From contig JAJZBI010000030.1 of NCBI GenBank assembly GCA_021798985.1, positions 1 through 42,704 of the forward strand: a stretch of 42,704 bases of DNA. Reading direction: 5' to 3'. The stretch comes from Actinomycetes bacterium (GTDB lineage Bacteria; Actinomycetota; Acidimicrobiia; Acidimicrobiales; Bog-793). A program made the translations under genes and the position numbers. The notes under the pieces are model-generated. The model searched no databases. It was not told the origin of the DNA and saw only the letters and a list, made by a program, of their open reading frames with translations. Shown in pieces: positions 97 through 42,704 of this stretch; the stretch's first letter is position 1; each line of letters begins with the position of its first letter.

Positions 97-146
97 GGTT
101 CCAGCATAGAACACACGTACGCCTACTGGGGACTAGTCAACATGGA

Positions 147-259
147 GCTGTTATTAGCCCTGTAAGGCGAGCGGCGCGCGCGACACGCTGCACCTCGACC
201 GAGCGGTAGCCCTCGTTCGGGGCTGTTATTAGCCCTGTAAGGCGAGCGGCGCGCGCGAC
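147..259. repeat. Pair of exact 38-bp direct repeats with a 37-bp spacer (CRISPR-like spacing)
   Basis: Positions 147-184 and 222-259 are identical over 38 bases, starting GCTGTTATTAGCC and ending GCGCGCGCGAC, and diverge immediately on both sides. The intervening segment, 185-221, is 37 bp. Repeat and spacer lengths fit a CRISPR unit, but only two copies exist and no cas gene is visible. Each copy has an AT-rich left part and a GC-rich right part containing GCGCGCGC. The spacer is not foreign-looking: 191-215 matches 388-412 of the adjacent glycosyltransferase gene at 21 of 25 positions in the same orientation. It may instead be debris of a second glycosyltransferase 3' end or of the IS607 insertion. 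The repeat is certain; its nature is not. Confidence 0.9.
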
Positions 260-270
260 CGTCGGTCAGC

Positions 271-1404
271 TCAGCGCCACAGCGGGGCGAAGCGGTACTT
301 GAAGCAGGCGACGACCCAGCTCCACGGGTCGCGCAGCACCGAGACCTTCTTGCCCTCGCTGAACGAGCGCGAGCGGTAGGTGACGGGCACCTCGATCGGG
401 CGGTAGCCGGCGCGCAGCAGCTTGCCGGCGAGCTCCCAGTCGAAGTCGAAGCGGTTGCACTCAAGGCGCAGGCCGGTCAGGCACTCGCGGCGGAACACCT
501 TGTACATCGTGAACGGGTCGCGCAGCTTGGCGCCGTAGACGGCGTTGAACAGGTGCAGGAAGGCGATGTTGGCGAGGTTCATCGCCACGCTGGCGATCAC
601 CTGGCTCTCGAAGTGCCGGACGCCAAAGCGCGCCCCGTCGGTCCGCTTGCGATACCCGAGCACGAAGCCCGCCTCGATCCGGCGCAGCGGCTCGAGTACG
701 GCCTCGTAGTCATCGAGGTCGTACTCGAGATCGGCGTCTTGGATGAGGACGAAGTCGCCGCTGGCCGCCGCCAGTCCGGCGCGCACGGCGTGGCCCTTGC
801 CCTGGGGGCGCTCCTCGAGCACGAGCGTCACCCTCGGATCCGCGCCGTAGGCCTGCATCGCCTCGCGACTCCCGTCGGTCGAGTTCGACTCGACGATCAC
901 GAGCTCGAGGTCGATCCCGTCGATCTGCTTGGCGAGGAGGGCCTCGACGACCTGGCTCGCCGTCCCGGCCTCGTTGTAGACGGGCATGACGACCGAGAGC
1001 ACCTGGCGCCGCTCGAGCGGGGGCAGCTTGGCGCTTCGCACGGCGGTCAACTCGATCGCCCGCTCGGTTCCCGCCTGGACGTGGATCTGCTCGAAGCCGG
1101 CCCCAAAGGCCATCCCGCTCAGCAGGTCCCGCAGGGCTTCGACGCGACCCGACAGCGTGGTGCTGCCCTCGCGCTGCAGCGTGAGGGACAGCTCGCCACC
1201 CGGGGCGAGGCGCTCGTAGGCCTCCTCGAGGAACGCCGCCAAGGCCCCCGGGTCGGCGGCGACCGTGGCCTGCAGGCGCGCCTCGCCCGGAGCGATGCCC
1301 GCCGCACCGAGCAGGTCGGCGCCAGCTCCAGACGTGCTGAGCGCGCCGACGGCCTCGGAGACCAGCTGCTCGACCGGTCGCTCGGGGATCCTCTGATCGG
1401 TCAC
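271..1404 (-). CDS. GT2 family glycosyltransferase with methyltransferase-like N-terminal segment
   Basis: The 377-residue product carries a GT-A (family 2) domain from about residue 135. It has MPVYNE at 140-145, ESNSTDGS at 172-179, the metal-binding QDADLEYD at 222-229, and GYRPIEVPVTYRSR near 333-346, as in polyprenyl-phosphate sugar transferases of the DPM1 type. It probably transfers a sugar from a nucleotide donor to a lipid carrier at the cytoplasmic membrane face. Residues 1-125 resemble the second half of a class I methyltransferase (LAPGGELSLTL near 66-76) but lack the glycine-rich SAM motif, so this part looks vestigial or regulatory. No membrane segment is obvious. The start is GTG at 1404, with AAGGAG about 11 bases upstream. 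It is transcribed toward the IS607 fragment and diverges from the gene at 1631 across a 226-bp gap. Confidence 0.9.
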   Translation of the reverse strand: MTDQRIPERPVEQLVSEAVGALSTSGAGADLLGAAGIAPGEARLQATVAADPGALAAFLEEAYERLAPGGELSLTLQREGSTTLSGRVEALRDLLSGMAFGAGFEQIHVQAGTERAIELTAVRSAKLPPLERRQVLSVVMPVYNEAGTASQVVEALLAKQIDGIDLELVIVESNSTDGSREAMQAYGADPRVTLVLEERPQGKGHAVRAGLAAASGDFVLIQDADLEYDLDDYEAVLEPLRRIEAGFVLGYRKRTDGARFGVRHFESQVIASVAMNLANIAFLHLFNAVYGAKLRDPFTMYKVFRRECLTGLRLECNRFDFDWELAGKLLRAGYRPIEVPVTYRSRSFSEGKKVSVLRDPWSWVVACFKYRFAPLWR

Positions 1405-1630: not shown

Positions 1631-4600
1631 GTGCGGGTCGACGACCGGGGCGACGCCCCCTCGCCGGCGCCCAAGCAGGGCGCCCGCCGCGGGCTCGTCG
1701 CCGGCCCGAGTGTGCGCGAGGCGCGCTGGCGCATCGCCACCCGGGCGGCGGCAGGGGTGCTCGTCGCGCTCGGCGTCGCCGCGCTGATCTGGCAGCACGT
1801 GCCAGATCACCTGCAGCTGCGCACCGACATCGTCGGCTACCCGGTCTTCTACGCCTTCGACTACGTCCGCTACTTCACGGCGTTCTCCCTGCTCGCCATC
1901 TTGTGTCCGGTGCTCGCCTTCGCCGTCGCCCACCTGCTCGGCGGTCACGGCCCCCTTCGTCGTCCACGCGACGAGCGCCCGTGGTGGCCCGTGCGGGAGG
2001 AGACCGCCGGGGCGAGCGACGAGCCGGACGAGTCGGCCCGATGGGCCCCGGCGCGCGCCCTCAGCATCCTTTCCCGGGCGGCGCTCCCGGCGGGCGTCCT
2101 CGCCCTCGAGGTGAGCGCGGCGAGCTCGACCGGCCCGCGCCAGCTCGCCGCACCGGGCTGGATCGCAGGCGGCCTGTACCTCGGCGTGCTGGCGGCCGCC
2201 GCCGTGGCGTGGCGGTGGTATGCGGCGCGCGCCGGGCGGGGGGACACGGCGCTGACGCGCGTGCTCTCCCTGGTCAACGCGCTCATGGCGAGCCTCGTCG
2301 TCCTCGGCGCCTGGGGCGTGTCGCGTGCGACCAACGTCACGGTGGCCGATCCGCCCCGCGTGGTCCACTACCCCTGGCTCCCGCTCTGGCTGGCGTTGTT
2401 GGTGACCTTCGTGATCGCCGCGTCCACCGCCCGGGCGCTGCGCCGGGGCGGGCCGGCGCGCTGGCGCAACGTCGAGGGCGCCGTCCTCGCGAGCGTCGTG
2501 GGTGTCGTGGGCGTCTACTTCCTGCTCGCCGGCTTTGCTGGCGCCCAGGGGCCCTTTGACGCCTTCGACCCCCAAGAGCTCGCCGGCGCGCAGCTGGTCT
2601 TCGTCCACGGCCTGTTGCCGTGGAAGGACGTCTTGTTGCTGCACGGCTTCATCGAGGACGCGCTGGACGGCTGGATCGGCATGGCGCTCTTCTCGCACTC
2701 GGCGTGGGGTGCCTTTGCCGGGATCGACCTGATCGTCTACCCGATCTCGGGCTGCGTGCTGTATCTGAGCGCGGTCTACTTCGCCCGCGGCAACCGGCTC
2801 GTCGCCCTGCTCGCCGGCCTGCTCGTCGTCGGGGGCTACACCACGGCGATCATGCGCTTTGCCTACCTGCCGGTGCTCGTGGTGCTGTTCGACAAGATGC
2901 TGCGCTCGCGCCGGGGCCTGTTCGCCTGGGCGTTCATGTTGCTCCTCGTGCTCGAGTGCGCGCTCGTGCCCGAGATGGCCCTCATGGCGATCGCGTTCTT
3001 GGTGGTGGCGGTGGGGCGCGACCTTGCGGTCGCTCCCGCCGGCCAGCGCTGGCGGCGACGCTTCGGCCTGACGCGGCGCCTCGTGGTGAGCGGGCTGGTG
3101 GGCACTGCCTTGCTCGCTGGCTACCTCGTCGCCACCGGCTCCCTGTCGGCTTTTGTCGACTACTACCGCCTCTTCGGCTCCGACCACGCCCTGTGGGGCG
3201 CGAAGCCCATCAGCTGGTCGCTCGCCGGCCAGCTCCGATTCAGCGTCTACTTCGTGCTGCCCGTCGTCGTCATGCTCGCCGTCATCGTGCGGATCGTGGC
3301 GCTGGTGCGCACACGCCGGGCCCTGTCGAGCCGCGACTGGACCATGCTCGCCTGCGCGCTCTTCGTCCTCGTCTACTTCCAAAAGGGCCTGGACCGCACC
3401 GACCCCTCCCATGTGGTCGAGGTCTTCACGGTGTCCACGCCGCTCATCTTGCTGGCGGGGATCCAGCTGGTCGAGTGGCTCGAGCGCCGTTCGGCGAGCG
3501 CGCTCGCCGGCCTGCGCGCGCGCCGTTCGGCCGGCGCCGCCCGCGCTCTCGCCCGCCGGCCCGCTCTCGCCCGCCGGCCCGTTGCGCTCACCGGCGCCGT
3601 GGTGCTGGTCGCCCTCGTGCCGAGCGTGTTCACGAAGCTGAACCAGGCGCCGGGGGCGCTGCACGCGAGCGCCCCGGTCCCCGCCCAGGTCGCCCGTCTC
3701 GGCTATGAGGTTCCCGGGGACTTCAACTTCCCCGAGCTGTCGGCGCTCGGCGCGCTCATCGAGCGCTACGCCGGGCCGAAGGGGCCGGTGTTCGACTTCG
3801 CCAACGAACCGGACATCACCTACTTCTTGTTGAACCGCGTCCCGGGCAGCTCCTTCTTCCACGTCGAGTCGGCCCAGACCTACGCCGCCCAGCTGCTCGT
3901 CATCCACCAGCTCGAACACAGCCGGCCCCGCGTCGTCATCTTCACCTCCGAGGATTACGGGTTGGGCCTCGCCTACGACAAGATCCCCGGGATGGTGCGG
4001 CAGTGGAGAATCAGCCAGTACCTGCTCCAGCACTACCGGCCGCTCGCGGATGCCTACGGCCAGCTGCTGATGGTGCGCGACGACCTGGTCGCCACGGTGC
4101 CGAGCGTCGCCTCGGCGCACCTTTCGGGGGTGAGTACCGCCGGGCTGTACTTCGCCGGCCAGTCGTGCGCGTGGGGCGACACGCCGAACTTCTTCGTGCC
4201 GAGCGGGCTGTCGCACGCGCCGGGCGTCACCGCCGCAGTGAGCGCCGGCGGCGTCGTCAACGAGCAGGTGCAGGGCTGGGCCGTCGACGCCACCACGAAG
4301 ATCCCGGCGCGCGAGGTCTTCGCGGTCAGCGACAACAAGGTGATCGGCACCGCCCGGCCCGACCTGTACCGGCTCGACATCGAGGAGTACTTCAAGACCC
4401 CCTCGGTGCTCTACAGCGGGTGGTCGATGGACGTCGAGCTACCCCGCGGCCAGAAGATGCAGTTGTACTCGCTGAACCGCAACGGCACCGTGTCCCGCCT
4501 GCAGCCCAACCCGGCCCCGAAGTGGCTGGCGAGCAACCCGCACCTCACCTCGGTGATCGCGCCGGGGGGAGTCCGGCGCAAGATCTTCCGAGGCAAGTGG

Positions 4601-42251: not shown

Positions 42252-42704
42252 TCGCGTTCTTGCTGGCGAGCAGCCTGACGCCCGTGCTCGTCGTGCTGAT
42301 CGTCGTCATCGTGGTCCTCCTCGGCCTGCTCGGGGCGGCGACCTCCTCGGCCGCCCGCAACGGTCACTTCTGGCGCCATCGCGAGCCCTCCGAGCCCGGC
42401 GGCGGCGCGGGGTCGAGCGGTACCGCCACGCTCGAGCGGCCGATCGGAGCACCGCCCGCCCCGGTGGCCCCGCCCCCCGAGCCGGCGAGCACCGCGGCGC
42501 CGCCCGCGGCGCCGCCCGCGGCGCCGCCCCTCCCGCCCGCGGCGCCGCCCCTCCCGCCAGCGGTGGTCGAGGCCGAGCTCGAAGAAGAGCTCCACCTCCC
42601 CGAGGCGATCCCCGAGGCAAAGCGCCCGCGGGTGCGCGAGCGCGTCGGCCGGGCGCGTGAGCTCTTCGCCGCCCCCTTCGCCTCGATCCGGCGCCGCGCC
42701 AAGA
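42248..42704 (+). CDS. ftsY: Signal recognition particle receptor FtsY, N-terminal part (cut by window end)
   Basis: GTG 42248 overlaps the smc stop and opens a frame that stays open to the window end (152 codons). It encodes an N-terminal membrane helix (about 3-37), a linker rich in Pro, Ala and Gly, an acidic EAELEEELHLPEAIPEA stretch and then RVRERVGRARELFAAPFASIRRR. The position after smc and the membrane-anchored acidic A-domain are those of actinobacterial FtsY, the SRP receptor GTPase. The GTPase domain lies outside the window, so the name rests on context and architecture. Confidence 0.8.
   Translation, partial: MIAFLLASSLTPVLVVLIVVIVVLLGLLGAATSSAARNGHFWRHREPSEPGGGAGSSGTATLERPIGAPPAPVAPPPEPASTAAPPAAPPAAPPLPPAAPPLPPAVVEAELEEELHLPEAIPEAKRPRVRERVGRARELFAAPFASIRRRAK
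42494..42558 (+). repeat. 12-bp tandem repeat encoding Ala-Ala-Pro-Pro in ftsY
   Basis: GCGGCGCCGCCC occurs three times in tandem (42494-42529) and once more at 42539-42550, with CTCCCGCC-type spacers. The frame is kept, giving an AAPP-rich linker. Such repeats slip easily, so the linker length probably varies between strains. Confidence 0.9.

Follow-up and report, generated by a model that had tools for sequence, protein, structure and literature searches.

A CRISPR-like pair of 38-bp repeats beside an IS607-type tnpA start, probably a transposon boundary duplicated after nested insertions

Near the left end of the window, by which we mean the whole stretch of 42,704 nucleotides analysed here, two exact 38-bp direct repeats (147–184 and 222–259, 75 bp from start to start) enclose 37 bp (185–221), and the question arises whether this arrangement is a small CRISPR array or the trace of another event. 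The preliminary description, made from the window alone, had proposed a minimal array, with an insertion scar as fallback; what it observed, namely two exact repeats enclosing 37 bp, next to an IS607-type tnpA start and without a third copy, is confirmed here. Extension of the repeat to positions 144 and 219 gives 41 bp at 98% identity. No class of exact direct repeat in the window is longer than the 38-bp pair, and since 30 dinucleotide-preserving shuffles gave classes of 14–20 bp only, the pair is not due to chance. A 26-nt piece of the unit, searched with up to three mismatches in the genome of 3,755,082 bases (96.9% complete), is found at two sites, those of the pair (control: 0). There is thus no third copy by this search, and the unit is not a dispersed repeat scattered singly through the genome, a case that the preliminary description had set against its own proposal. 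Short GC-rich direct repeats occur near the right end of the window (42492–42558). The features of the locus are collected in Table 1.

Table 1. Features at the left end of the window (positions of the window)
Feature	Positions	Strand	Basis or composition
IS607-type tnpA, first 32 codons (serine transposase), cut by contig end	1–96	-	Similarity to G011:C90 TnpA
IS607 left end, tnpA to element boundary	97–159	-	C20:1–161 99% identical, diverges from 162
Repeat copy 1	147–184		Tip 147–157, core 158–159, CTG 160–162, TAA 163–165, host 166–184
Presumed exchange core CC (GG on other strand)	158–159		Left-end alignments in relatives
Filler ("spacer"), 37 bp	185–221		Matches neither flank
Repeat copy 2	222–259		Tip 222–232, core 233–234, CTG 235–237, TAA 238–240, host 241–259
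30 bp taken as native glycosyltransferase/FkbM-type interval	241–270		Position between TAA and glycosyltransferase stop
Family-2 glycosyltransferase gene, ORF intact, insertions on 3' side	271–1404	-	PF00535, E 6.5e-26

The contig of the window (C53) is cut 146 bp to the left of copy 1, inside an IS607 element. Its 38 codons from base 114 down to base 1 are 84% identical to the TnpA of a same-family element on contig C90 of genome G011, which bears out the IS607 identification. The full TnpA of that element matches the Pfam Resolvase family (PF00239); of the window's tnpA only the start, without the catalytic domain, is assembled, and the 32-residue fragment alone matches no Pfam family. The G011 element also encodes an intact TnpB (PF01385, PF07282). 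Within the genome of the window, tnpB next to an IS607 end is limited to a pair of rearranged fragments that close contig C68 (L117:4141–4704), lying head to head and meeting near 4500, the C-terminal one on the minus strand (PF07282) and the N-terminal one on the plus strand; they correspond to either a rearranged or a chimeric IS607 tnpB. A more divergent IS607-type TnpA, 44% identical, is encoded on contig C23 of this genome (26780–27364, L137; open frame of 221 aa).

Where the element ends can be read from its relatives. The longest left-end alignments stop at 160–161, CC/GG is present at the boundary in C53, in contig C20 of the same genome and in relatives, and comparison of these sequences would place the left boundary at about 159–161; since the targets are often GGG, its exact position is uncertain by about one G/C. 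The window starts at the end of C53, and C20 opens with the same bases: the first mismatch is at 128, the next at 152, and the flank is unrelated from 162. The 127 bp of exact identity have the appearance of a k-mer overlap produced by the assembler where it had collapsed a multi-copy element, inside which both contigs would then break. The start of C20 (L002:1–161) is a second copy of the IS607 left end, lying upstream of a gene that appears cytochrome-b-like by eye; the right-hand side of this insertion was not found.

The proximity of such an edge raises the main remaining doubt, namely that an assembly or library chimera, through chimeric reads or a strain mixture beside the collapsed repeat, made the second copy and the filler. 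The whole arrangement falls in the first 260 bp of a contig whose end was made by a multi-copy element, and C68, across the gap, likewise ends in the head-to-head tnpB pieces; on the other hand, with an apparent overlap of 127 bp, repeat collapse would not by itself account for a much shorter repeat of 38 bp, and we regard this origin as unlikely.

The right-hand part of the repeat unit is explained by an older insertion. In a relative of the same genus (G002), a glycosyltransferase gene and a convergent FkbM-type gene form an uninterrupted pair 26 bp apart, although the sequence of the interval itself is not conserved there. A search of genome contigs with the glycosyltransferase gave 80 loci, the best being 60% identical. 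The FkbM-type gene of the present genome sits on C68, where its TAA stop is directly followed by an IS5-family element with a DUF4096 transposase piece and then by the right end of an IS607 element, identified on visual inspection by its terminal GCAACGG, which the G011 element shares. When the flanks in C53 and C68 are joined around one GG, the sequence obtained is TTA followed by CAGGGTGTGTCC, which matches the other IS end beside TAA, CTGGGTGTGTCC, at 11 of 12 and 14 of 17 positions. TTA with an 11/12 match was found at none of 1,441,590 positions on both strands of the compared loci, a count in which overlapping loci enter more than once and for which the threshold was set after the match had been seen. 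As judged from these joined ends, the flank join is the apparent footprint of an IS5-family insertion with TAA duplication, whose terminal GGG the IS607 element subsequently entered. Joining around one GG restores the IS5-family end, i.e. the IS607 element was inserted at GG without target duplication. The same habit is described for IS607 in PMC6188088, according to which the element targets GG or (G)GG and does not duplicate its target. The continuity of C68 with C53 is drawn from the flank join itself, since the interior of the IS607 element, also a possible donor of the filler, was not found in the assembly of this genome and C68 ends in the head-to-head tnpB pieces. The older element, which we take to be IS427-like, would fit the preference of such elements for a 3-bp TNA target. 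The region between its two ends (L117:1576–4106) holds an apparently full-length tnpB frame (1822–3282, 486 aa), either a passenger or a nested insertion, in addition to the transposase piece.

Taken together with the IS607 boundary, this leads to a decomposition of the repeat. In each copy the CTG is the IS5-family terminus and the TAA its target duplication, and the 38-bp unit can be read as 11 bp of IS607 tip, 2 bp of GG/CC core (one G/C at the core being assignable to either side), 3 bp of IS5-family end, TAA and 19 bp of adjacent DNA. The last 19 bp are called native because of their position between the IS5-family element and the glycosyltransferase gene. A unit of this make-up would be expected only once both insertions had taken place, and we therefore consider it a boundary that was duplicated rather than the repeat of a CRISPR array. 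The array proposed initially is therefore not upheld: the unit is accounted for by the left end of the IS607 element, the terminus of the IS5-family element with its target duplication, and the DNA beside them, and it is the fallback, an insertion scar, that finds support, in the form of a duplicated IS607 boundary of composite make-up.

Further evidence bears on a genuine minimal CRISPR array or remnant. Lengths of 38 and 37 bp fall within the range of CRISPR repeats and spacers, which speaks for it. The preliminary description had suggested a search for cas genes; Cas1 (PF01867), the only one sought, has no match in this genome (96.9% complete), the control search having matches in 9 of 14 genomes. 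Nor has it a match in two relatives of the same genus (68% and 94% complete), whereas a search of 35 genomes of the family gave a match in 9. The repeat piece has no exact match in viral contigs, two 20-mers of the filler have none either, and comparison of the filler with phage and plasmid collections gave nothing significant (best E 0.1). Spacers of no known source are common in real CRISPR arrays, so that the missing spacer match is a weak test. The repeat folds less well than the majority of its shuffles, 183/200 and 194/200 of which fold at least as well on the two strands, and Rfam scans of L001, L117 and L131 gave no family at the repeats; Transposase-2 RNA (RF03015) was recognised in the relative L131, and L001 has one match far below the gathering score at 680–739. 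In the portion of the CRISPRCasdb description that deals with grading, small arrays receive the lowest evidence level (PMC7145573); by our reading of this rule, a two-repeat structure would rank lowest. Given the composite unit, the limitation to two copies, the failure to find Cas1 in the genome or a protospacer, and the lack of a repeat fold, we rejected the CRISPR array, which we hold to be very improbable. The same small probability is given to a variant in which a Cas1-Cas2-like integrase, now absent or located on another replicon, put the 37-bp fragment into a chance 38-bp site. Off-target integration of this kind would leave duplicate-insert-duplicate geometry and, across an IS607 boundary, would amount to a CRISPR array beginning to form de novo.

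If the duplication were a regular product of IS607 transposition, it should be met at other left ends, which were compared at 26 loci besides the window: C20, 12 loci from a search at family level (matches in 10 of 35 genomes, own genome included) and 13 from a search at order level (15 of 397 genomes, own genome included, at most two candidates per genome being scored). One locus (L157) was too short to score. At 19 of the 25 others, C20 among them, the tip could be recognised by eye as a version of GCAGT....A[A/G]CC, with unrelated flank after it; the tip was not recognised at L125, L147, L151, L152, L154 and L156, which are uninformative on the boundary. A second copy of the 30-base junction, looked for within 600 bp or up to the end of the locus, is absent from all 19 loci whose tip could be recognised. 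The best match among them is 18/30 (17/30 at C20, where the duplication is absent) and at most 19/30 in the other six, against 30/30 in the window. This argues against a by-product of the IS607 TnpA such as, at the same GG core, a second insertion that failed or an earlier copy of which the left end persisted. It is true that both copies start 11 bp within the element and that AGGGCTA, the seven bases found at the boundary of the IS607 element, recurs in the filler on the minus strand; yet exchange at the GG core alone would not give the 11-bp tip followed by CCCGAACG (minus strand) instead of TCCATGTT, and we find this explanation improbable.

Simple tandem duplication, the other case that the preliminary description had set against an array, is rejected as well, since the filler comes after copy 1 where the sequence beyond copy 2 would be expected, and before copy 2 where element sequence would be expected; the 37 bp belong to neither flank. 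Several sources were considered for this filler. Among the 40 of 84 candidates scored in the genome, none is a further full match to it at E≤0.001. Comparison with 10 loci on both strands (200 mononucleotide shuffles each, the window being represented by its first 3 kb) gave the highest similarity, 24/37, in the glycosyltransferase gene at 382–418; as the best of 20 comparisons, with a shuffle fraction of 0.005, it is not convincing, and repair from a nearby template is accordingly not demonstrated. For related IS607 elements and neighbouring loci, the best ungapped identities were within the range of the shuffles, the lowest fraction besides that of the window being 0.06 (L135, plus strand). 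Among Azospirillum plasmid sequences, including an IS701-type transposase, 8 records agree with the filler at 83% over 36 bases (E 0.1); this similarity and that to the ISAzs6 transposase (86% over 28 bases, E 5) are not significant. By eye, the filler has 11 bases in common with the hairpin at the right end of C68.

We thus favour, as the probable origin of the pair, a left boundary of an IS607-family transposon that was duplicated once, after nested IS insertions. Starting from a glycosyltransferase gene and a convergent FkbM-type gene about 30 bp apart, as suggested by the uninterrupted pair of the relative, an IS5-family element would have inserted between the two with duplication of TAA, a step deduced from the flank join. 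The IS607 element would then have entered the CAGGG end of this element by exchange at a GG core; the same join, with its assembly gap inside the IS607 element, underlies this step. Finally, we infer that 38 bp spanning the boundary thus created became doubled, the two copies being set apart by 37 bp of filler. The mechanism would most likely be break repair, in which nicks on opposite strands 38 bp apart were filled in around a captured fragment, or else template switching during repair synthesis; both would yield duplicate, filler and duplicate. The pair is thus most probably an unremarkable scar, left at the edge of an IS607 element by repair or template switching, and no function is indicated for the duplicated junction. 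A two-repeat "CRISPR" candidate can therefore come from a duplicated transposon boundary, with pieces laid down at different times, which makes the locus useful as a counter-example when scans report short arrays. It is a small record of nested IS insertion and does not imply a new system.

Compared with known systems, the locus resembles CRISPR arrays in its repeat-spacer-repeat geometry and differs from them in having two copies only and a composite unit, and in that neither Cas1 nor spacer matches were found. Its affinity to the IS607 family (IS607, IS1535, ISC1926) is seen in the serine-recombinase tnpA start, the GG (CC) boundary, the C53/C68 join without target duplication and the tnpB partner in the same-family element of G011, whereas the window boundary carries an extra 75 bp, i.e. 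the 38-bp duplicate and the 37-bp filler, unseen at the 19 other left ends. The older insertion agrees with IS5-family elements making 3-bp target duplications in its DUF4096 transposase piece, its imperfect ends C[T/A]GGGTGTGTCC and the duplicated TAA; unlike IS427-like members of this family, it contains an extra tnpB frame (L117:1822–3282) and has one terminus interrupted by the IS607 element.
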